A DNA stretch of 32,557 nt, from the NCBI GenBank assembly GCA_002771515.1, contig PCTL01000019.1, positions 1 through 32,557 on the forward strand, written 5' to 3'. Under the pieces are notes generated by a model. That model was not told the origin of the DNA and ran no database searches. It saw nothing but the letters and a program-made list of their open reading frames with translations. Source of the DNA: Candidatus Lloydbacteria bacterium CG22_combo_CG10-13_8_21_14_all_47_15. Lineage in GTDB: Bacteria; Patescibacteriota; Minisyncoccia; Phycocordibacterales; 21-14-all-47-15. This document shows positions 12,892 to 26,974 of the stretch, one piece after another. How positions within the stretch are numbered: the stretch's first letter is position 1; the number at the start of each line of letters is the position of its first letter. The position numbers and the translations under genes are program-made.

Positions 12892-15958
<3,067 letters not shown>

Positions 15959-15999
15959 TTACGGAAATATGGAATACATATATTATTTTTCGGTTACCC

Positions 16000-16029
16000 A
16001 ATACTGCACCTTCTTGGTAGTGCAGTATT
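16000..16029 (-). other. Hairpin in the 23S leader
   Basis: AATACTGCAC and GTGCAGTATT form ten perfect pairs around a ten-base loop, 40 bases upstream of the 23S 5' end. It may help rRNA processing or antitermination. The rest of 16030-16180 is leader with no gene seen. Confidence 0.5.
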
Positions 16030-16180
16030 CTATTTAGTTTTCAAATTGCATTCACGCCAGTCGTATCTCAAAAACAAAACCGCTTAATGGCGGTTCGGAC
16101 AACAGATAATCACTAGGGATTTCTACTTATCCTTTCCGCAATGGGATTTTGTTTTTAACCGTATTCATACCGTACATTTC

Positions 16181-16208
16181 ATTATACGCAGCGCGCAAGC
16201 GCCGTCAA
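16181..16208 (-). promoter_or_regulatory. Promoter of the 23S-5S unit
   Basis: On the minus strand TTGACG (16208-16203), a 16-base GC-rich spacer, then TATAAT (16186-16181). The start would fall near 16174, giving a leader of about 215 bases before 23S. This supports an independently transcribed 23S-5S unit. The stretch 16209-16348 shows nothing else I can identify. Confidence 0.7.
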
Positions 16209-16348
16209 GTCCCTATACAGTTAACCTTATGGGATGACGCTTTCAAGCCGGATTGGAACGACAAATAGTAACTGAACATAGGTCTCTAATATATATTCGT
16301 ATATATCCGCCATATCTAAACCGTTTATAGGTTTCTTGCGTTTCTGGC

Positions 16349-16380
16349 AAAAAAACACCACTGTGCGGTGGTGTTTTTTT
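16349..16380 (-). terminator. Intrinsic terminator of the channel-like gene
   Basis: A7, CACCAC, loop TGTGCG, GTGGTG, T7. Nearly symmetrical, so it may act in both directions. Confidence 0.85.
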
Positions 16381-16411
16381 GAAAACAGAATTTGAGATTA
16401 AAAAGCCTCGC

Positions 16412-17098
16412 TTATTTTCCAGAAATCTCGCCTCGCAACCGTTCAATATATTTTGCTGCAGCATCCTTCCCGCCAAGACCGAACGCAAGACCAATACCGA
16501 GCGAAAGCGCCACGATAACACCCGTAAAGAGTGTCTGCGCAAAAACGCCGGCAATGCCAAGCTGACTAACTGCCGCGAGAAGCGCAAAAATCCAGATTGC
16601 CCACCGTGCTACACCGCCCAAAAAATGCGCAGACGGAATACCTGCCGCTTTTGCTGAGCCGGTCACTACCCGCTGAATAAACTGCGCAATCAGAGCGGCT
16701 GACAGCAAAATAAGCGCCGCCACAAACACATTCGGCAAATAGAGCAACACCACATCTTTTAGAAAGATGGTTACTTGTGCAAGCCCGAGAACATCAAACG
16801 CCGCAACAAGAAAGACGATGATGATGAACCATTTTACCAAGTCGCCGATAAACAGGCCGGAATTCAAATTAAAGCCTGTTCGGTTTATGACATCCTCAAA
16901 CCCCGCACTCGCCAGCGCACTATCTACTCGCAACGCCTTGATGATCTGTGCCACAACTCGCCCAAGCACTGCCGCAATCACCCATCCGATGATGAAGATA
17001 ATCAGCGCAACTACCAGATTCGGTACAAATCCAAGCACACCAATCCATAAATTCTGGAATGACTGTGTCAAGACATCGCTCCACGTTTGTAATACCAT
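16412..17098 (-). CDS. Mechanosensitive-channel-like membrane protein (conserved TM helix family)
   Basis: A 228-residue integral membrane protein with about five hydrophobic helices. The first is at residues 17-46 (LWIGVLGFVPNLVVALIIFIIGWVIAAVLG); it is followed by the Gly/Ala-rich segment ending GIGLAFGLGGKDAAAKYIERL, typical of the short TM-helix proteins related to small-conductance mechanosensitive channels. The large soluble MscS beta domain is absent. It is a single-gene unit with its own promoter and terminator. A role in osmotic relief is inferred from distant family similarity only. Confidence 0.75.
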   Translation of the reverse strand: MVLQTWSDVLTQSFQNLWIGVLGFVPNLVVALIIFIIGWVIAAVLGRVVAQIIKALRVDSALASAGFEDVINRTGFNLNSGLFIGDLVKWFIIIVFLVAAFDVLGLAQVTIFLKDVVLLYLPNVFVAALILLSAALIAQFIQRVVTGSAKAAGIPSAHFLGGVARWAIWIFALLAAVSQLGIAGVFAQTLFTGVIVALSLGIGLAFGLGGKDAAAKYIERLRGEISGK

Positions 17099-17115
17099 AT
17101 CAAGCTTGATTTATG

Positions 17116-17144
17116 ATTATAGTAATATCGCCGTACCGCAAAAA
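17116..17144 (-). promoter_or_regulatory. Promoter of the channel-like gene
   Basis: On the minus strand TTTTTG (17144-17139), 17 bases, TATAAT (17121-17116). The predicted start leaves only about 11 bases before the ATG at 17098, with no Shine-Dalgarno. The stretch 17145-17301 shows nothing else identifiable. Confidence 0.5.
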
Positions 17145-17301
17145 TATTCCACGGAAAAACGACAAAATACTCGACCACTAACTAATAATCATTTTAAATT
17201 ATACCATTTTAATAGTGCGTTGTTACCGCTCCTGTGGATAACCACGCGTGCCGAACTGAAGGCGTGATTTATTCTTTTATTGTCAGATTTCTGACTCACC
17301 G

Positions 17302-17922
17302 CTAATCAATCCCAATTTTGTCAAATATTTTTTCATGCGGATAGTCAAGAATATCGCGAATAAATTTATCGTACATACCATGACGATACAAAAAATCCTT
17401 TGTATCAAAAACCGCATAATGAAGTTCGCGCCCGACTTCGGCCTCAATCAATCGTATGGATTGTTCAAGCATCCCGCGTTTTAGACGATCACCAACAATT
17501 AGAAGGTCCACGCGGCTGTCTGGATCGTGTATAAAAATACCGGATATAATAATCAGCTTTACCTTCCCACCTCGGCGGCATCGCGTCACGATATCTTCTG
17601 TTTTTATCGGTCCCGAGCTTGATAATAGATTGTAAAACTGGTTAAGGAGGGGAAATGCAGGATCAAGTTGCCATCCAATAACCGCTTTCTTTCCCGGTTT
17701 TCCTTTTGAATTTATCCGCGGTTTTCTCTCTTTAAAGAAACGCTTGTACCGGATAAACCCAACGGAATAAAGCATGCCGGTCTCACGGCGAACGGTTGAA
17801 CCACTCACTTTGCTCCGATATGCAATATCCCTGTTTAAGAATGCAAGCTCCGGATTAAGAAGAAACAGCCTCATAATCTTGATTCGAGCCGTCCCGCCAA
17901 AGAGTTTTCCGAGAATATCCAT
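17302..17922 (-). CDS. Winged-helix protein with a nucleotidyltransferase-like C-terminal domain
   Basis: A 206-residue protein. Residues 1-60 look like a winged helix-turn-helix (FGGTARIKIMRLFLLNPE, then RDIAYRSKVSGSTVRRETGML). The middle is basic and may touch nucleic acid. The C-terminal half contains SRVDLLIVGD (about residues 135-144), which resembles the metal-binding strand of minimal nucleotidyltransferases, preceded by an IISGIF strand. Only one acidic position of the usual GS-x-DxD pattern is clear, so catalysis is doubtful. It could be a transcriptional regulator with a ligand-sensing or toxin-derived domain. ATG 17922 has no Shine-Dalgarno; an 8-base palindrome TTCATGAA lies about 20 bases upstream. 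No antitoxin partner is adjacent. Confidence 0.65.
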   Translation of the reverse strand: MDILGKLFGGTARIKIMRLFLLNPELAFLNRDIAYRSKVSGSTVRRETGMLYSVGFIRYKRFFKERKPRINSKGKPGKKAVIGWQLDPAFPLLNQFYNLLSSSGPIKTEDIVTRCRRGGKVKLIIISGIFIHDPDSRVDLLIVGDRLKRGMLEQSIRLIEAEVGRELHYAVFDTKDFLYRHGMYDKFIRDILDYPHEKIFDKIGID

Positions 17923-18061
17923 TGTGGATACTCTAACACTTCATGAACTTGTGGGGATATTGACTACGCATTTTTCATGTGATGTTACAATACTGAAATA
18001 GGTAGCATCTTTATTAGTGCAAAATGAAGACATTGCCGCTAAAATGTTCGTGGACTGCAAC

Positions 18062-18089
18062 AAAAAATCGCGCCGTAGCGCGATTTTTT
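18062..18089 (-). terminator. Intrinsic terminator of rplJ-rplL
   Basis: A6, TCGCGC, 4-base loop, GCGCGA, T6, one base after the rplL stop. Confidence 0.9.
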
Positions 18090-18090
18090 C

Positions 18091-18585
18091 TTATTTCAAT
18101 TCTATTTTTCCACCAGCTGCTTCAACTTTTTTCTTCAACTCTTCCGCTTCCTCTTTCTTCATACCTTGCTTAAGCATTGCCGGCGCGGCATCTACCAAAT
18201 CTTTCGCTTCTTTCAAGCCGAGACCTAACGCTTCTTTAAGCGCCTTAATGACTTGAATTTTCTGAGCTCCGGCATCCGCGAGCTCAACATCAAAGGATGA
18301 TTTCTCTTCCGCGGCCTCACCTGTGCCCGCACCCGATGCGGACATAGCCATTGCAGCCGCCGACACACCAAATTTCTTTTCAAGCACTTTCACAAGTTCA
18401 TGAAGCTCAAGCACGCTCATGTCCTCAATTTTTGAGACCAGGTCTTTAAATTTCTGAGGAACCTCTACTTCTTCACTGTCCGGCTCAGTCACAGGTAGCG
18501 CGGCTTCCACTTTTGTATCTTCCACAGGTTTCTCCGGAGCGGCAGTTTCCTCTGTTTGTGCTGCCTTTTTTTCTTCGTCTGTCAT
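18091..18585 (-). CDS. rplL: Ribosomal protein bL12 (L7/L12) with an acidic N-terminal extension
   Basis: Stalk protein that recruits translation GTPases; it binds L10 through its N-terminus. The usual protein is about 120 residues, and this one has 164. The normal N-terminal dimerisation part begins near residue 43 ([34 protein letters not shown]). An Ala/Gly hinge follows (about 75-90), then the factor-binding domain ([23 protein letters not shown]). The first 42 residues are an added stretch rich in Glu, Lys, Pro and Ala, likely disordered. The first ATG is used because no start exists at the usual N-terminus until Met56, which would remove needed residues. No Shine-Dalgarno is visible; rplJ ends 27 bases upstream. 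Confidence 0.95.
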
Positions 18586-18612
18586 AATGATTAATAATTT
18601 ATGTTAATAATT

Positions 18613-19104
18613 TTATACTTCTCGTTTCTTCGCAATCTGACCAAGCGCCACGACAAACTGCTGAATTGGCGAGTTAATAAGATTCACAAACTGACCATAC
18701 AGAACATTCTGTGACGGTATCTCGGCAATATCTGTCATAGCCGCTTGGTCCATATACCTGCCTTCAAAAATGCCGCCGATAATCCTAATTGCGTCCTTGT
18801 ATGTTTTCTGGAATGCGTATACTTCCCGTGCCGGTGCAATCAAGTCATCACCGTATACCAACGCCAATTCACCTTCAAACGCCGGCTCTACGCCCGACAC
18901 ACCGCTATCGGCAAGCACACGCTTCACAATCGTCTTTTTTGCAACTTTGTAGGAAATACCTTTCTTGTGAAGCGCTTTCCGCATAGCGGTCGTCTCTGCA
19001 ACCGGCAGTCCATGAAAATTTACAAACGCAACTGACGGCGATGCCTTTACAGCATCGGCTACTTCAGAATATATTTCCTTCTTTTTGTCTTTTGATACAG
19101 CCAT
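18613..19104 (-). CDS. rplJ: Ribosomal protein uL10
   Basis: Base of the ribosomal stalk; binds 23S rRNA and carries L12 dimers. The 163-residue product shows the family N-terminus (KDKKKEIYSEVADAVKASPSVAFVNFHGL), the segment MRKALHKKGISYKVAKKTI, and a C-terminal helix that should bind L12. The gene forms a two-gene operon with rplL behind an L10 leader. The common neighbours rplK, rplA and rpoB are not present here, so the cluster is split. Confidence 0.95.
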   Translation of the reverse strand: MAVSKDKKKEIYSEVADAVKASPSVAFVNFHGLPVAETTAMRKALHKKGISYKVAKKTIVKRVLADSGVSGVEPAFEGELALVYGDDLIAPAREVYAFQKTYKDAIRIIGGIFEGRYMDQAAMTDIAEIPSQNVLYGQFVNLINSPIQQFVVALGQIAKKREV

Positions 19105-19169
19105 AATAAAAGTATCAAACTTTGGTTATCTTCTCGGCTTGGAAAGATAAATTATATTCATCTTTCGTT

Positions 19170-19266
19170 CGCCATGTGTCGCTAATAAAAAAATAAACGG
19201 CCAAAAGCCGCGCGTACTTCGACCTCGGCAGGGCTTATGGTATACCGCCTGCTGTCTACGGCTTGT
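19170..19266 (-). promoter_or_regulatory. Ribosomal protein L10 leader
   Basis: The minus strand carries the hallmark segments GTAGACAGCAGG (about 19261-19250) and CCCTGCCGAGG (about 19234-19224), which pair through GCAGG/CCTGC as in the known L10 leader that binds the L10-L12 complex for feedback control. Downstream, CGGC TTTTG GCCG followed by TTTATTTTTTT (19210-19187) may be an attenuator. The rest up to the ATG at 19104 is untranslated. Confidence 0.75.
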
Positions 19267-19272
19267 ATATAC

Positions 19273-19301
19273 TATATACCGCCAGAGCATCAAAAAGTCA
19301 A
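19273..19301 (-). promoter_or_regulatory. Promoter of rplJ-rplL
   Basis: On the minus strand TTGACT (19301-19296), a 17-base spacer, TATATA (19278-19273). The start would fall near 19266, right at the L10 leader, giving a leader of about 160 bases. Confidence 0.7.
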
Positions 19302-19332
19302 TAGCAAACTGCTATTATGGCGCACAGTAAAT

Positions 19333-19368
19333 AAAAATTCTCCGGTAGCGTACCGCCGGAGAATTTTT
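19333..19368 (-). terminator. Intrinsic terminator after the peptidoglycan-binding gene
   Basis: AAAAATTCTCCGG and CCGGAGAATTTTT form a 13-base stem around a ten-base loop, 17 bases after the stop. Confidence 0.88.
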
Positions 19369-19384
19369 ATCCTGTAATATTCCT

Positions 19385-20683
19385 TTACTGTGCAATCTGT
19401 GTTTGAAGTTCCGCCTGAAGAGTTTCAAGCTGACTAAGCATTGCCTGAATCTGTACCTCCAGAGCATCTACATCCGCCTGGTTTCCTTGTGCCGGAGCCG
19501 CAGGAACGGCAGGCACTTCAGTCGGTACGGCAGGGATTGCAGGCATACCTCCGCTAAAGATTTCTCCAAACTTCGCGCGCGTTTTCGGACCTACAAAACC
19601 GTATCCCGGATCTCCGGTGCCAGCCACACCATATTTTACTTGAAATTTCTGCACTGCTTTTTCGGTCAGAGAACCGAAGTAGTCGGTTTCGTTACCTGGC
19701 GAGCCGACGCCTGATGAAGAAATAATCGTGTCCGTGTCGGAGTTTAAGAGCTGTTGGAGCCGTTTGACATCCGTACCTGCTTGTCCAAGCCCCAACGCCG
19801 CTGTAAAGACAGGAGAAACTGCTGTTGCGACAGGTGACGGCTCTGCCACTTCGGGAGCTTGCGGTTCTGCATTACTGAATACTTCCGCGAGTTTTGCCCG
19901 TGTAGCGGGACCCACAAGACCGTAACCTGTTGTGTCAGGAGAGCCACTTGAGACCACCCCGTACTTCGCCTGGAATTTCTGCACCGCTTTTTCGGTCAGA
20001 GAACCGAAGTAGTCGGTTTCGTTGCCTGGCGAGCCGACGCCTGATGAAGAAATAATCGTGTCCGTGTCGGAGTTTAAGAGCTGTTGGAGCCGTTTGACCT
20101 CATCGCTTGATATTCCACGCGTGAGTGTTCCCGCAAATACCGGGGAAACGGCGAGCGCGACAGGAGAGGGCTGTGCTACCGTAGAAGCCGGTGTCGTTAG
20201 CGCGCCTGCTATCGGCACACCCGGAACCACAATCGGCTGTGACGCAGGGATACCTCCTCCTCCGCCTCCTCCACCACCAGTAGAACCGCCGCCACTTGAC
20301 GCAGCGCCTCCGCCACCGCCTCCGCTACAAGTACTCCCTGAAGTAGGAGTAACTGTTACGGTTACAGTTGTGTCCCATAGGTCATTTTCAATTGTAAGCG
20401 TAGAATTACTGCTTCCGCATACAAAACTTTTCCTATAATCAACAGGGTCAACCGTAAAGTTACGCTTATCGCTTGAGGTAATTGTCATTTTAGCATCGCG
20501 CGAGAGATCAGCTGTAAACTTAGTAGCACTCACAGTAACGGAGTCGATACTACCTTGCGAAACGGTAAAACTATCGCCGCCAACGCTTATCGTAGAACCT
20601 GTAAGAACAGCATCGGTATTTGCAGCAAACGAAGCCATCGGAAAGAGAATCAGCGTGGCAACGAGTAACCATTTGTTTGCCAT
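19385..20683 (-). CDS. Exported protein with two peptidoglycan-binding domains
   Basis: A 432-residue exported protein. Residues 1-20 are a signal peptide with cleavage after SFA. A small beta-rich domain follows (21-118), then a Gly/Ser linker with runs of glycine (119-144). Two PG_binding_1 domains lie at about 183-270 and 293-377, each with [24 protein letters not shown] and GP-x-TRAK. A Pro/Ala linker and a coiled coil (about 402-432) finish it. The two domains are almost identical at the DNA level. It probably ties a surface structure to the wall. It lies 23 bases downstream of the repeat-protein gene and probably shares its promoter. Confidence 0.88.
19644..19768. repeat. 125-base direct repeat, copy 1
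   Basis: Identical to 19974-20098 except for two bases, at an offset of exactly 330 bases (110 codons). It encodes the core of the second peptidoglycan-binding domain. Confidence 0.9.
19974..20098. repeat. 125-base direct repeat, copy 2
   Basis: Partner of 19644-19768; it encodes the core of the first peptidoglycan-binding domain. The in-frame spacing allows gain or loss of a domain by recombination. Confidence 0.9.
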
Positions 20684-20706
20684 AATAATAAGAGTTAATT
20701 GATCAA

Positions 20707-21471
20707 TTACTTGATGCCAATAAAGTTAATGGTGGTATTTGCGCTTTCAATACTTGTCGTTGTGGTTGCCAAATCACCGACATTCGCGATAGATAATCCG
20801 ATTGTGCTCGCCGCCGTTGAGGATGCCGCCTGAATAATAAAGTTTGAATGGAGTGTCGGTGCCTGAACAAATATCTTAAATCCAGTGGTTACACCGGTCG
20901 CGCCTGTGCAACTTGCAACCGCTGTAGATGACGCGGTAACCGTTGTATTCGCAAGACTGCATGTGCCGAATATCATTCCGCTGATTGTTCCAGCCGTGCT
21001 ATTACCTCCAACAATTAAATTAGTCGTGCTTGCTGTGGTCGTAACATCAAGATTTGTACCTACAGTCAGCGCGCCTGTAGTTGAAGCACTGCCGTTGATT
21101 GTAACTGAATCCGCCACGGCATCTCCCAAGGTAACATTGCCGTTTGCCGTCAGAGTTCCTGCAGTCGCGAAGTTTCCGTTGGTGGAAGTTGTAGTCGCGA
21201 AACCGTTTACCCACAAATTACCTCCAACAGTCAGTCCATTGGTTGTAGACGCATTGCCGGTAATAATAATTGCATCTGCCGCCGCATCGCCTAAAGTGAC
21301 TGCGTCATTGAGGGTTGTTGCGCCACTTACAGTAAGCGACCCTCCTGTAGTAATATTCGTGCTAATCGTTGTCGCCGCGGATGCCGCAATAGCAACAAAA
21401 ACAAACGAAAGAACGACGGAAAATGCCACAGAAAACATGTCGCGTTTCTTAAATAACTTTTTCATACGCAT
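20707..21471 (-). CDS. Exported Thr/Ala/Ser-rich repeat protein, fibre-like
   Basis: A 254-residue protein from ATG 21471. An N-terminal signal segment ends at about residue 32 (ASA before ATT). The mature part repeats short beta-forming units such as LTVGGN, LTVGTN, VTLGDA and ASTT(N/G), rich in Thr, Ala, Asn and Gly; this resembles surface fibre or beta-solenoid head repeats. Two cysteines lie near the C-terminal third (GTCSLANT and ASCTGA). The C-terminal part ([11 protein letters not shown]...) looks like a capping beta domain. TTG at 21480 and ATG at 21465 are other possible starts; none has a Shine-Dalgarno. It probably forms or decorates a surface layer or fibre together with the next gene's wall-binding product. 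No family name is assigned. Confidence 0.7.
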
Positions 21472-21623
21472 GTAACGCAAAAGATAAAGATTGCGTTATA
21501 ATATAAAATTACTAATAAAAATAAATAAAGTTTTTCTCGCCTATGTTTTTTGGATTTCGACGCCAAGCATAGGTTTATTTATAACCAAACCAGAGCACAC
21601 TGAGTTTTCACAGTGATACATAT

Positions 21624-21653
21624 ATCATAGCGTGCGGGGGGGGGGTGTTGCAA
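21624..21653 (-). promoter_or_regulatory. Candidate phase-variable promoter with a ten-base C tract in its spacer
   Basis: On the minus strand TTGCAA (21653-21648) and TATGAT (21629-21624) are 18 bases apart, and the spacer contains ten C in a row (21645-21636). A start near 21617 would give a leader of about 146 bases, with possible hairpins CACTG/CAGTG and CCTATG/CATAGG, before the fibre-like gene. A second promoter closer to the gene (AT-rich at 21490-21510) cannot be excluded. The rest of 21481-21716 has no gene. Confidence 0.5.
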
Positions 21654-21716
21654 AACAATGTATGTGGATAACATTACAACAGACCGAGCAACGATGTTTC
21701 AATACGATTTGATTGC

Positions 21717-21747
21717 AAAAAAAAATACGCTCACTGGCGTATTTTTT
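21717..21747 (-). terminator. Intrinsic terminator after the DUF4956 gene
   Basis: A-run, ATACGC (21725-21730), loop TCACTG, GCGTAT, T-run. It closes the CotH/VTC operon. Confidence 0.85.
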
Positions 21748-21772
21748 ATGTGTTCCGACGCAACTTGTACGG

Positions 21773-22447
21773 TTAATATTCAACACTCTTCTCTCCGCTA
21801 ATGATATTTACACTTGAAATCAAATCTTTGTCGTGTAATTCATTTATAAGTTTCGCGGAATCAAAAGTATCTTTCAATTTAATAGAAAATATATATGTAT
21901 TTGTGTCTACTCCGTAGGTCTTTGCCTGTAGAAATTCAAAGGATTCGGCGAAACCGGAAATAACTTTCCGTACTTCGTCCATATTAATATTTTTCTTTGC
22001 GTTGAAGGTCAAAATAAACCCGACATTACTGGTCATACTTCCGATATGGTACCGATAGAGACCGAGGATAATCAGCGAGATAATTACAGTTGATATGAGC
22101 GCTATTGAATAGTGGCTCGTACCGACCGCAACGCCGATTACGAGCGCGAAGAATACGAAAGCAATGTCGCGCGTTTCCTTCAAAATCGTGCGGAACCGAA
22201 TAAGAGAAAAGGCGCCAAGAAGCGCGAAAGCGCCAACAAGATTATTCTGCACCACCATCATCACAACCGAGCCGAGGATACCGACAATAATCAATGTAAA
22301 GATAAATGATGGCGAATATGATAGCCCTTGATGCGTCCGCTTATATACAAAGACAATCACCAAGAGAAGCGCAAACGCAAATAGCAGGTTAAAGACTACA
22401 ATGGCAGAACTTAATTCTGTTTGTGTCAAATTATAAAAATTGTTCAT
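21773..22447 (-). CDS. DUF4956-family membrane protein
   Basis: A 224-residue protein. Four or so membrane helices lie in residues 15-135. Between them is the family-typical segment NNLVGAFALLGAFSLIRFRTILKETRDIAFVFFALVIGVAVG. The C-terminal 85 residues are a soluble, ferredoxin-like alpha/beta domain facing the cytosol. It ends the operon CotH, CotH-beta-helix, VTC, DUF4956; genes of these families are known to occur together in other bacteria. The function is not established; membrane support for the VTC enzyme is a guess. It starts ten bases after the VTC gene stop. Confidence 0.85.
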   Translation of the reverse strand: MNNFYNLTQTELSSAIVVFNLLFAFALLLVIVFVYKRTHQGLSYSPSFIFTLIIVGILGSVVMMVVQNNLVGAFALLGAFSLIRFRTILKETRDIAFVFFALVIGVAVGTSHYSIALISTVIISLIILGLYRYHIGSMTSNVGFILTFNAKKNINMDEVRKVISGFAESFEFLQAKTYGVDTNTYIFSIKLKDTFDSAKLINELHDKDLISSVNIISGEKSVEY

Positions 22448-22457
22448 AAAATAAATG

Positions 22458-23174
22458 TTATCTTCCTATAGGATAAGCCGCGGTCAGCGCGTCAATGGCA
22501 TTCGTATACTTTGAAAACGGCTCGCGCGACAAGTGGAACCTGCGAACCATATCGCCGAACCACCACGGCATCGCTCCAAAAAATTTTACTTCCATCACCG
22601 CCCGCCCCGGCGCGACGGAAAACATTCCACCATTATCCACAAAATCACTCCACGCGCAAGTTTCAATATCGTAGTCAATGGTCAACCGTATCTCCGACAA
22701 AAAATAGCTCACATACGCGCTGCGCTTATACCGTACCACGATATTTGGATGATAATTTTTCATCTGGAAATAGTGCAGAAATTTCCGTAACTGCGCGTCG
22801 TTCCCATTGCGCGATTTTAACGCGGCTACATCAGTATTGTGAAGAAGAGATGCAAATCCATCACCATCCACGACGCTTCTTATCTTTCGTATATTCATAT
22901 TGTGTTTTTCTTTTATTTCAAGCCACACATCCCCGCCGTAGGAAAACGAATTTTCATAAATCCTCGCTCGCATTTTTCTGCGAAATTTCACGCCGCTTAA
23001 CTTATCATGATAATCATCTAAAAGAGGCGTATCAAAATACAAGCTCGTGACGATGTACGATCCGTCTTGCGCGGTGTCTTTATCAAGTCCGATTTTTTGC
23101 AGATACTCTTCAAAAATCGGCATCATATGCGCGTCAATAATATATTTAAACTCGTGCCTGCTGTTTTTTGTCAT
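22458..23174 (-). CDS. VTC-domain protein (polyphosphate polymerase-like)
   Basis: A 238-residue protein with the VTC fold, a tunnel enzyme related to the yeast vacuolar polyphosphate polymerase. Expected charged tunnel residues are present: RHEFKY (6-11), RRKMRARIY, LEIKEK, VRYKRSAY, TIDYDI and VMEVKF. ATG 23174 lies four bases after the CotH stop and gives the family-typical N-terminus; the frame extending to 23342 would overlap the CotH gene. No membrane segment is seen, so it probably acts in the cytosol, perhaps docked on the DUF4956 protein. Polyphosphate synthesis is the family's assigned role but is unproven for this branch. Confidence 0.87.
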   Translation of the reverse strand: MTKNSRHEFKYIIDAHMMPIFEEYLQKIGLDKDTAQDGSYIVTSLYFDTPLLDDYHDKLSGVKFRRKMRARIYENSFSYGGDVWLEIKEKHNMNIRKIRSVVDGDGFASLLHNTDVAALKSRNGNDAQLRKFLHYFQMKNYHPNIVVRYKRSAYVSYFLSEIRLTIDYDIETCAWSDFVDNGGMFSVAPGRAVMEVKFFGAMPWWFGDMVRRFHLSREPFSKYTNAIDALTAAYPIGR

Positions 23175-23178
23175 ATGC

Positions 23179-25572
23179 TTATTTGATATATCGGTACTCT
23201 TGGACCGGAAACTCTGCCCCTTCAAACAAAGATAATGCATCTGCCGCAAGCGGGATAGTAACATTTTCAAATATATTTTCCGAAAGAACAGCGGCTCCGC
23301 CATTGGCAAATTCCGCTTTCTTGCGGTATGCGACAATACCAATCTTCGTATCTAAAATTCTATTACCTGAAATATCGGCAACGGCGTTATCTTTCACAGC
23401 AATGCCAATTTCACATCCGGTAATAGTATTTTCCCGAATAATCGGCCGAGCCCCTTCTCCTACACTTATTCCCTTGTCGGAACAGCCATATACCTGATTG
23501 TTTTCCGCAAGAATATCACTCCAACTCAAATCAATAGCGTCACCGCCTCCGTCAAAGCCGATGTCAGAAAACACATTACCGACAATCTTCGTATCTCTTG
23601 AAACAAAATCAACATCTATGGCGTCAGAAAATGTGTGCTCAAACCTAGAATCTCTAATGCTCGCTTCTCCGTATTTTATATTCAACGCGTCATCGTCGCC
23701 TGAATTGCTGAATGTTGTGTCTGAAATTTCAACCGATGCGTTGTGAAATGCCACCATTCCGGTAAATGTAATACCGTTTATACTCTCACCCGAACCGCCA
23801 TCAAAGAAAACATTCTCTACAATACTCTTTTCTTCCGTATTGACCACGGCAAATGTTCCCCATTCCCTACCGGTATTCGCGCGCATCACACGGATAGGCG
23901 CAAAACTGCGCCCGCGCGCAACGATAGGACTATACGAAATCACGGAGACGCCTTCTCCCATATATAGAGTCGCCCCAGCGTCAATCTGTACCCGAACCCC
24001 GCGTGGAACAATAATATCACTCCCAAAATAGTACGAGCCGGGCAAGAGCGCTACAGTTAACGCGTCCCGTTTGACGAACGATGGATTGACGCGGATAAAT
24101 TCATCAATAGAGGAGCCGGATTCAGAGAAACGCTTAAACTCACCTTCCGGAAAAAATCGGTTTTTATCAGGATCATCGCCCTTGTCGGCAGTATAATAGC
24201 TATCCCCGTACTCAAGCACGGCTTTCGCGCTATGGAAATTATCAACCGCAATATCCCTAAATACCCCAACCTGCCGAATAAACTGGAAATTATTGTAAAG
24301 CTTTGCCCCGTCCGTAAAGAAATCCGCCTTTGTCTTGTCGTACCAGTCGTCATAAAAAGACAAATCGTCCATTAAGTTTGAGTCATCCGATATGTATGCT
24401 CCAAGAAGTTTATTCCGTGCTTCGCGGAATTCCGGAATACCGAGAATACGGCTTGAGATATCTGTGATATGGTCCCCGCGCATCGTATCAATCGCCGTCA
24501 TCTCCAAATCCCACGGACTGAATTCAAATTTTCCGGTATCTGGATTAAATATTAAAAACACATTTCCAAAGGTTTCGTTAAAATGACTGCTACCGGCAAG
24601 AATGCTCACCACATTGAACGCGTAAAATTTATCCATATCAAGTATGTTGGGTATCAGGCGTTTGAATGTTCCATCATCCGCACCATCCAGAAGTTCATAA
24701 AAAGTCCGTACGGCAGTGTCTGCCGTCGCTTGGCCTGTATGTCTGGTAAAGTAGTATGTCCCATCTTTCCGTACCACAGAAAACACGGAAGAATCATTAG
24801 CATCGGCACTCTCTCCGACAAGAATACTATCGTCAAGATTAAACACCGACAGTGCATCTGATACAGGACGCTTGTTCAGCCATTCATCAGTGAAGCGTTC
24901 TACGGTCAGATAAACTCCCATATCAACTCCGTTTATCCGAAGCCGCGCAAACGACATATCAAGCGTCGTCAACCCTAATTTCTGCGCGCGATACAAATTG
25001 AGCGGTTCAGCAAAATATTTTCGGTCATATGGAATAATAAAATCCAAACTCTTCATACCTTGAAACAGATTTTTTGACGGAAATTTGACCCGTATTGATT
25101 TTTGAAAACTATTCCAGTGGTTTGCGTTGGTACCTCGATATTTTACTTTTACTTCATCCTGATATCCTCCGAAGGCGAACCCGCCGGTAGCCCATACTCT
25201 GTTATCGCTTTCCAAATATCCACCCACGGGGTCAGCCGGTAAATTCGCATTCAGAAAGACCATATTTTGCGTAGTGATAAACATGTCATATACAGGCAAG
25301 TGAGACGGCGCCAGGGAATGTACCAAATAGTACGGCGCGAAAAAAATATCCGGAAGTTTCCGCAAGGAATGATACGCGTGCAAAAAATGCCGGGCAATGG
25401 GATTCCCTAGAATGCTTGTTCTAAAAGCGTTAAAAGAGGCGCTTCTTTGCTCAAGCGGATTTTGAAATATCACAAGAGAAAAAATCACCGCAAAAAAGAC
25501 GCACGCGACGAGGAGCGGATACCGTACTTTTTTTTGTCTGAAAAAATGCCGTATGTTCATATCTGATATCAT
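23179..25572 (-). CDS. CotH-family protein fused to a right-handed beta-helix
   Basis: A 797-residue protein, anchored by one N-terminal helix (about residues 18-36). The CotH domain (about 95-480) has the CotH basic strand VKYRGTNANHWNSFQKSIRVKF (143-164) and the kinase-like motif NETFGNVFLIFNP followed by PWDLEM (353-358), whose Asp should bind metal. From about residue 505 to 780 comes a parallel beta-helix (ISDTTFSNSGDD, IRDSRFEHT, IVGNVFSDIG and ENNQVYG repeats). CotH proteins are atypical protein kinases related to Fam20C in other bacteria. The beta-helix may bind or modify a surface polymer. The start ATG directly follows the upstream stop; Met5 is an alternative start. Confidence 0.85.
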   Translation of the reverse strand: MISDMNIRHFFRQKKVRYPLLVACVFFAVIFSLVIFQNPLEQRSASFNAFRTSILGNPIARHFLHAYHSLRKLPDIFFAPYYLVHSLAPSHLPVYDMFITTQNMVFLNANLPADPVGGYLESDNRVWATGGFAFGGYQDEVKVKYRGTNANHWNSFQKSIRVKFPSKNLFQGMKSLDFIIPYDRKYFAEPLNLYRAQKLGLTTLDMSFARLRINGVDMGVYLTVERFTDEWLNKRPVSDALSVFNLDDSILVGESADANDSSVFSVVRKDGTYYFTRHTGQATADTAVRTFYELLDGADDGTFKRLIPNILDMDKFYAFNVVSILAGSSHFNETFGNVFLIFNPDTGKFEFSPWDLEMTAIDTMRGDHITDISSRILGIPEFREARNKLLGAYISDDSNLMDDLSFYDDWYDKTKADFFTDGAKLYNNFQFIRQVGVFRDIAVDNFHSAKAVLEYGDSYYTADKGDDPDKNRFFPEGEFKRFSESGSSIDEFIRVNPSFVKRDALTVALLPGSYYFGSDIIVPRGVRVQIDAGATLYMGEGVSVISYSPIVARGRSFAPIRVMRANTGREWGTFAVVNTEEKSIVENVFFDGGSGESINGITFTGMVAFHNASVEISDTTFSNSGDDDALNIKYGEASIRDSRFEHTFSDAIDVDFVSRDTKIVGNVFSDIGFDGGGDAIDLSWSDILAENNQVYGCSDKGISVGEGARPIIRENTITGCEIGIAVKDNAVADISGNRILDTKIGIVAYRKKAEFANGGAAVLSENIFENVTIPLAADALSLFEGAEFPVQEYRYIK

Positions 25573-26886
25573 CTAGCGTGCGTACTCGTTCTCCAGCACA
25601 TTGCGCGCGTTGTGAAAATTATTAATAAAATGCCAACGGGTCTCCGCCACTGTGTTCATAAACACAAAGTTGTTGTCTTTTTTTGCGGTATCTTTGAAAA
25701 ACGCACCTTTCGTACTCTCGTATAAATTGTCGTAAAACTTAAGGTCATCCCTCAAATTGTCGGGGTTATCTATATACTCGGCCAAAAGCTCATTCCGCCG
25801 TTCCCGAAACGCGTCTACTGACAATATTCGCTGTGACAAAGTTGAGTTCTCAGTATAATGCTCACGCGCCGGATTGATAACGATATCAATCGGCACCATT
25901 TCAAATTTTCCAGTTTCCGCATTACGAAGAAGCATCACATTCTCAAAATCATACTGTGGATTACCTGCAAGAATGGTCAGGATATCCCACCGGTAAAACT
26001 TCTCCATATCCAAGAGTTTTGGTATCTCTCTTTCAAACACCTCATCTGTGGCGGTATCAACAATGGAAATCAGCGCTTCAAGATTTTTGTATCGTTCTTT
26101 TTCTTCTATGTAGCTTTTCCAACCGCCGATAAACTCAATGTCGTACAGCGACAGTACAGATTCATATTCTACTTCATTATCTCCGCCAAAAAGCGCCATG
26201 GAACCGTCGTCAACGCCAAATATATTTGATCCGGCAGGTACGCCCTTTTTGTCTAAAAGCTCCCGCGACCAATGGTCGGATACAATATACACGCCATGAT
26301 TCTCGCCATTCAAGATGACATTCATAAAGCGCATATCGGGCGTTAACAAACCGAATTTCTCCGCACGATACATATTGAGAAAAGGAGCATAATATAATTT
26401 GTCAGACGGAAGTACCAAATTAAGCGCGGATGCGCCTTCAAAAAGATGCCCCTCCGAAAACTTTACGCGATAGGATTTTTTAAAACTATTCCAATGATTT
26501 GAATTCAAGCCCTTGTATCGCACATCTGCTTCAGAAATAAAGCCGTCGCTCTGGAACATACCTTTCACAAACACACGGTTTTCATCAAGGCTGATGCTCG
26601 TAAACGGAGAAGACTTCGGTAGGTTATCGTTCAAATAGAGAATATCTTTTGATTCAATGTCCAAAGAAAGCTCCGGGAGGTCGGTTTGAATAAACAAATA
26701 CGGGAAAAATACGATGTCCGGCAACTTTCTGAGCGAACGGTAGAGCGGGAGTAATTGTCTGCCAAATTCACTATCCGTTACTTTTGATTTAATGGTCAAA
26801 GGCAATGAATTAAGCCACCAAAGCAAAGTAGCCGATACAACCGATATCACGATAAAGACAAGATATTTGTGGCGCGCCGATTTCAT
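25573..26886 (-). CDS. CotH-family protein, membrane anchored
   Basis: A 437-residue CotH protein with one N-terminal membrane helix (LVFIVISVVSATLLWWLN). The body is CotH: VRYKGLNSNHWNSFKKSYRVKF, AGNPQYDFENVMLLRNAETGKFE, then VPIDIV. The metal-binding Asp of the last motif is kept, but the following acidic residue found in the partner CotH (WDLE) is replaced (IDIV), and Trp is lost. It has no beta-helix. ATG 26886 is preferred over the frame opening at 26958, which starts inside a terminator. It is the first gene of the operon. It may be the weaker or regulatory half of a CotH pair. Confidence 0.83.
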   Translation of the reverse strand: MKSARHKYLVFIVISVVSATLLWWLNSLPLTIKSKVTDSEFGRQLLPLYRSLRKLPDIVFFPYLFIQTDLPELSLDIESKDILYLNDNLPKSSPFTSISLDENRVFVKGMFQSDGFISEADVRYKGLNSNHWNSFKKSYRVKFSEGHLFEGASALNLVLPSDKLYYAPFLNMYRAEKFGLLTPDMRFMNVILNGENHGVYIVSDHWSRELLDKKGVPAGSNIFGVDDGSMALFGGDNEVEYESVLSLYDIEFIGGWKSYIEEKERYKNLEALISIVDTATDEVFEREIPKLLDMEKFYRWDILTILAGNPQYDFENVMLLRNAETGKFEMVPIDIVINPAREHYTENSTLSQRILSVDAFRERRNELLAEYIDNPDNLRDDLKFYDNLYESTKGAFFKDTAKKDNNFVFMNTVAETRWHFINNFHNARNVLENEYAR

Positions 26887-26904
26887 TTTATAATCCAAGC
26901 ATTC

Positions 26905-26919
26905 TACCGTAAAACGGTA
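26905..26919. promoter_or_regulatory. Short inverted repeat upstream of the CotH operon
   Basis: TACCG and CGGTA separated by five bases, just upstream of the first CotH gene and next to a possible -10 TAGAAT on the minus strand. It could be a regulator site. Confidence 0.35.
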
Positions 26920-26951
26920 AAAAATCCAGCGTCTCATGACGCTGGATTTTT
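26919..26951 (-). terminator. Intrinsic terminator between the sugar operon and the CotH operon
   Basis: AAATCCAGCGTC, loop TCAT, GACGCTGGATTTTT: about 14 pairs followed by T. Symmetrical enough to act in both directions. It separates the two minus-strand operons. Confidence 0.88.
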
Positions 26952-26974
26952 GATACATAATTCTATGCTATTAC

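Follow-up and report, generated by a model that had tools for sequence, protein, structure and literature searches.

A ten-cytosine tract in the promoter of a fibre and wall-binding gene cassette as a probable phase-variation switch in a Patescibacteria-like genome

We analysed a window of DNA, by which we mean the whole stretch of 32,557 nucleotides, and found a tract of ten C residues between the -35-like and -10-like hexamers of a promoter that precedes genes for an exported fibre-like protein and a wall-binding partner. Phase variation of this two-gene surface cassette through the tract is the best explanation of the site and, in our judgement, a probable one, because the tract is an outlier in length, the promoter and the cassette are conserved, relatives carry repeats and length differences, a methyltransferase reading frame is split at the second tract of the genome, and no MutS was found. 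For the most part, Patescibacteria are regarded as episymbionts, and nearly all are uncultured. A fibre cassette that is widely conserved and driven by a hypermutable promoter would be a concrete answer to how they vary their attachment surface, and one that can be tested in reads, where counts of tract length in existing metagenomes could suffice.

Promoter and cassette

The features of the site are collected in Table 1. On the minus strand, positions 21653 to 21624 read TTGCAA, CA, ten C, GCACGC and TATGAT. An initial annotation had placed TTGCAA and TATGAT 18 bases apart on this strand, with C at ten of these bases; the spacing can be read directly in the sequence, and the count of ten is right for the single run, the whole spacer holding 14 C. 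Nine bases separate TTATCCACA from TTGCAA on the same strand. The -35 can also be read in other registers (TTTGCA with a 19-nt spacer, 9/12; GCAACA with 16 nt, 8/12), and sites in the AT-rich leader score 8/12 and could be alternative promoters. An Rfam search of positions 15000-23000 returned no family in the leader. Genes just upstream, at 21773-26958 on the minus strand, encode a DUF4956 protein, a VTC domain protein and two CotH-like proteins, one of them with a C-terminal beta-helix; the hairpin in the table, AAAAAATACGC-CAGTGA-GCGTATTTTTT with a T tail, would terminate the upstream VTC/DUF4956 transcript.

Table 1. Features of the promoter site and of the cassette in the window
Feature	Position	Strand	Basis or remark
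Exported protein with Gly/Ser-rich linker and two PG_binding_1 domains	19385..20683	-	PF01471, E 1.4e-14, 2 stretches
Exported fibre-like protein	20707..21471	-	254 aa from ATG 21471, 252 aa from ATG 21465
Leader of proposed transcript, about 150 nt, AT-rich, with hairpins	21472..21623	-	Sequence
-10-like TATGAT	21624..21629	-	5/6 match; 33 nt 3' of TTATCCACA box
Ten-C tract in promoter spacer, proposed hypermutable element	21636..21645	-	Sequence, run statistics
-35-like TTGCAA	21648..21653	-	4/6 match; register ambiguous
TTATCCACA, DnaA-box-like upstream element kept in fibre-family promoters	21663..21671	-	Comparison
Intrinsic-terminator-like hairpin with T tail	21717..21747	-	Sequence; fold -11.0 kcal/mol

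Taken alone, the hexamer pair that straddles the tract is weak (9/12, P ~0.027 by shuffling of the flanks), and promoter-like matches in the region overall occur at chance level, with 18 found and 20 expected. What makes the promoter convincing is the TTATCCACA box, which the first reading had missed. Upstream DNA of 150 nt or more was available for 22 members of the fibre family, counting that of the window; of these, 19 have TTATCCACA upstream, against 0.11 expected from shuffles; the count took in the reverse complement and one-base variants within 300 nt. A good -10 is located 20-39 nt past the box, most often 28-33 nt, in 17 of these 22 genes, that of the window among them. The distance in the window is 33 nt, the same as in two homologs (L215 and L218). 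Because this frame of box and -10 is kept across the family, we take the poly-C, on the comparison of sequences, to lie inside a real promoter, namely the one conserved in the fibre family. The claim of a promoter upstream of the fibre gene is borne out by the comparison with this conserved promoter, and the site as a whole has a homopolymer of about 8 nt or more between the hexamers of a sigma-70-type promoter, namely C10 in TTGCAA-18-TATGAT, its -35 being weak.

The box is not confined to the fibre family. The window's own genome holds 18 copies of TTATCCACA against two of a reversed control (9-fold), many of them just 5' of a -10, and the copy at 17233-17241 on the minus strand is in the promoter of an MscS-like gene. 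The motif is a perfect DnaA-box consensus, and a -10 frequently follows it by 20-41 nt (window, L153-L170). It is possibly a general promoter element in Patescibacteria, and would as such give access to gene regulation in bacteria for which transcription data are almost absent. Besides these promoters bearing a DnaA box, the genome encodes DnaA domain IV, which makes DnaA a candidate for reading the motif; another protein may do so instead. Among the papers searched, none joins the DnaA box with Patescibacteria.

The fibre-like protein has an N-terminal signal or anchor, a conserved ATTISTNI motif, Gly/Thr-rich repeats and a conserved C-terminal domain. It matched no Pfam family, and the name fibre is suggested by the character of its sequence; the protein would be displayed on the cell surface. 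The gene for the PG-binding protein begins 23 nt past the fibre stop. The initial annotation had described the two as a fibre-like exported protein and its wall-binding partner, and this holds: in all 14 homologs with enough downstream DNA an exported gene of the PG-binding type is next after the fibre gene, 7-144 nt away. Partner type in the homologs was judged by eye, the Pfam run on partners covering the window protein only; the homologous partners show a conserved N-terminal domain, a Gly/Ser-rich linker and, where the contig piece reaches, PG-binding-like repeats. Fibre homologs are scattered through the order. Beyond the cassette, at 19183-19279 on the minus strand, a ribosomal protein L10 leader (Rfam RF00557, above the gathering score) precedes the genes for L10 and L7/L12.

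Length of the tract and the second tract of the genome

The window belongs to a Patescibacteria-like genome of 658 kb in 34 contigs, 93% complete; relatives from the public collection bear the label Patescibacteria or Parcubacteria. In its 658,133 bases only two C/G runs of at least 7 occur, both exactly 10 long, and runs of 7, 8 or 9 number zero. Run counts drop about fivefold per extra base in 82 kb of the same genome; extrapolation of this decay gives about nine runs of at least 7 genome-wide but only about 0.06 of at least 10, so that two of the latter have P ~0.002. The tract of the window is, as in a contingency locus, far longer than the background runs of its genome. Two runs of 10 with none of 7-9 give the impression of two sites at which long tracts are selected, not of general drift. 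The length of the tract in the assembly consensus may be off by one base.

The other C10/G10 run (G000:C1:17449-17458, G000 being the window's own genome; L001 1501-1510, L033 2950-2959) is in a locus of sugar and glycan genes that includes FdtA, methyltransferases and glycosyltransferases. An open reading frame with a SAM-methyltransferase-like start leads into the G10 tract, beyond which the second half lies in a different frame. The two halves may be one gene, since their frames adjoin and the N-terminal half matches Methyltransf_23 weakly; homologs of the C-terminal half numbered none in the 147 relatives. This second tract is likely a coding phase-variation locus in its off state; alternatively, an error in consensus length would give the frame split the same appearance.

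Repeats in the promoters of relatives

Of the 22 fibre promoters, just 3 have a repeat between box and -10, most having none. In one homolog (G081) the interval holds (GA)7, and in another (G239, L227) a G7 stands directly before TATAAT, between box and -10. Apart from this G7 and a C7 located 173 nt upstream (L225), the homologous promoters contain no C/G run of at least 7. Fibre promoters that are nearly identical can differ in the length of the tract. One relative (G129) has five paralogous genes for exported tail-fibre-like proteins with a poly-G upstream of each (L070, L119, L120, L122); three of these tracts, with near-identical flanks, have 10, 10 and 13 G, and the other two have 11 and 11. 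In a further relative (G141), the -35 zone ahead of an extended -10 is occupied by a tract of G10-G12 at five sites or more (L091, L147-L150), several of which precede genes with signal peptides.

Across the order, 62 of 148 genomes have a C/G run of at least 10. When the 110 non-redundant tracts of this length were considered, a TTAT[AC]CAC box was present within 70 nt of the tract in 11 (0.86 expected), always on the upstream side with respect to the promoter strand. In 14 cases the G tract borders immediately on a -10-like hexamer (1.6 expected), and strong promoters straddle the tract in seven (1.2 expected). The promoter strand in most relatives is the G strand, unlike the C strand of the window. 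Artefacts account for some tracts of the order, which stand next to Ns or at the end of a contig (L050, L051, L086, L102), and stems of terminators for others.

Proposed switch and alternatives

In the switch that we propose, the promoter would consist of the DnaA-box-like TTATCCACA, a weak -35 and the -10, and slipped-strand mispairing at replication would add or remove C residues. A lack of MutS would favour such slippage: in the 93% complete genome no match to PF00488 (MutS_V) was detected, while control genomes do match. A single step would change the -35/-10 spacing from 18 to 17 or 19 and would at the same time alter the spacing from box to -10, turning these two elements against each other by about 34 degrees. 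Either RNA polymerase or a factor bound at the box would then work better or worse, and clonal cells would differ heritably and reversibly in the amount of fibre. We infer that tract length changes in this population and that such changes alter transcription. As the register of the -35 is ambiguous, a spacing of 17 nt is one candidate among others for the ON state. The distance from box to -10 is itself variable in the family, and therefore the effect may be graded, or may act through the spacing to an upstream factor, rather than only through a -35/-10 optimum.

The promoter could be real and its C10 still a neutral run, expanded passively in a genome without mismatch repair and drifting in length with hardly any change in expression. 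The missing MutS_V match and the many homologous promoters without a repeat would suit this account, as would the tolerance of box-to--10 spacing, which covers 20-39 nt. Passive expansion predicts many runs of 7-9 across the genome, however, where there are zero; moreover, both runs of 10 are in surface-related loci and unrelated repeat units occupy the same place in homologs, and we consider a neutral run unlikely. A chance run of C, or an error of sequencing or assembly, close to promoter-like letters is much less credible still. The weakness of the hexamer match alone and the poly-G/C artefacts known from contig ends or beside Ns (those four loci listed above) speak for it; against it, the tract is internal to its contig, has unique flanks, sits in a conserved promoter frame and is a strong outlier in run length.

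A role of the poly-C as an operator, or as a DNA or RNA structure such as a G-quadruplex or a binding site, would replace spacing as the basis of its function. Some relatives have their tracts beside or upstream of the -10 and not between two clear boxes, and those of G141 stand in the -35 zone, as this account would have it. The tract of the window, however, is upstream of the expected start and so would not be transcribed, and in the G081 homolog (GA)7 takes its place, which argues for length and not for a C-specific code; we regard this account as doubtful, somewhat more so than the neutral run. An origin of the tract in a diversity-generating retroelement (DGR) was also considered, since 31 readable loci with bAvd and reverse transcriptase (RT) genes in relatives carry such repeats. 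It was rejected because the window's own genome, 93% assembled, has no RT match of the bAvd/RT type; the genes on either side of the tract encode neither a bAvd protein nor an RT, and the probability left to this origin is negligible. Several points weigh against the proposed switch itself: the 4/6 match of the -35, the small number of fibre promoters with a repeat, the possible alternative promoters in the leader, the use of the G strand in most relatives, and a possible one-base error in the consensus length. Phase variation through promoter spacing keeps by far the largest share of our confidence.

Relation to known systems

The tract of porA in Neisseria meningitidis is a poly-G, and its product is an outer-membrane porin, whereas the window combines a poly-C with a wall and fibre cassette. 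Layout and predicted mechanism in porA and fetA are otherwise the same as in the window. In porA, fetA and opc of N. meningitidis the tract lies between -10 and -35 (PMC2791445), in agreement with the earlier remark that a homopolymer at this place is a known switch, as in porA. According to the account of Sarkari 1994 given in PMC2791445, the promoter spacer of opc, a gene for a surface protein, contains a poly-C, as does that of the putative surface gene in the window; length-dependent expression was measured for opc, whereas for the window such dependence is inferred. The opc gene also differs in phylum and protein family, and the window has a conserved DnaA-box-like element before its -35. 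The proposed switch is of the opc/porA/fetA kind in a distant phylum and not a new mechanism.

The hif fimbriae of Haemophilus influenzae have a TA repeat in a divergent promoter, a case that the (GA)7 of the G081 homolog resembles. In hif and nadA the repeat length may set the distance between regulator and promoter, as the interval from box to -10 could do in the window, where the regulator at the box is putative. The repeat of nadA in N. meningitidis alters the spacing between regulator sites (PMC2791445). Contingency loci of the Campylobacter type have poly-G/C tracts within the coding sequence of glycan genes (PMC3068675); the second C10/G10 tract, which splits a methyltransferase of a sugar locus, is similar, with only one such locus in this genome. 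From the same radiation, the only repeat-based variation that we found is the hypervariable PTD-repeat gene of a gracilibacterium (PMC6851277), where nine-base coding repeats vary in one protein, which is not an on/off homopolymer switch. No report of a homopolymer switch in Patescibacteria, CPR or Saccharibacteria was found among the matches listed.

Diversity-generating retroelements in relatives

Many tracts of the order, in relatives and not in the window's genome, have a bAvd gene (PF22296) on one side and a divergent reverse transcriptase on the other (L171-L200 and, for example, L041, L087, L135 and L141). In three loci tested, neighbouring repeats of 109-124 nt differ mainly at template adenines, the mismatches facing T (A on the other strand) in one copy in 20 of 20, 20 of 20 and 13-14 of 16 cases; these loci are therefore diversity-generating retroelements, consistent with the Patescibacteria-restricted DGR clade 2 (PMC8144416). 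None of the papers searched joins diversity-generating retroelements with slipped-strand mispairing. The occurrence of the same kind of repeat on them would link two kinds of programmed hypermutation.

In the 31 readable loci, which were partly chosen for having a tract so that the proportion is not a rate, the repeat at the fixed place between bAvd and RT is poly-C in 27, (CT)n in two, (GTCA)n in one and (AACC)n in one. In six of the 31 the nearest ATG shares the frame of bAvd, and in 25 it does not. This suggests that the DGRs of this order are phase-variable, and frame-shifting repeats at a fixed position are perhaps a more novel finding than the switch of the window. On a wider scale, we lean slightly towards the view that this order of Patescibacteria runs a programme of repeat-based phase variation, in this genome without MutS, that would take in fibre promoters marked by the DnaA-box-like motif, glycan enzymes, and the DGRs of relatives, in which one frame-shifting repeat is shared by the bAvd frame and the RT promoter. 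In 29 readable loci that were found by RT alone and judged by eye, a G run of at least 8 was present in 22 and another repeat in six others.
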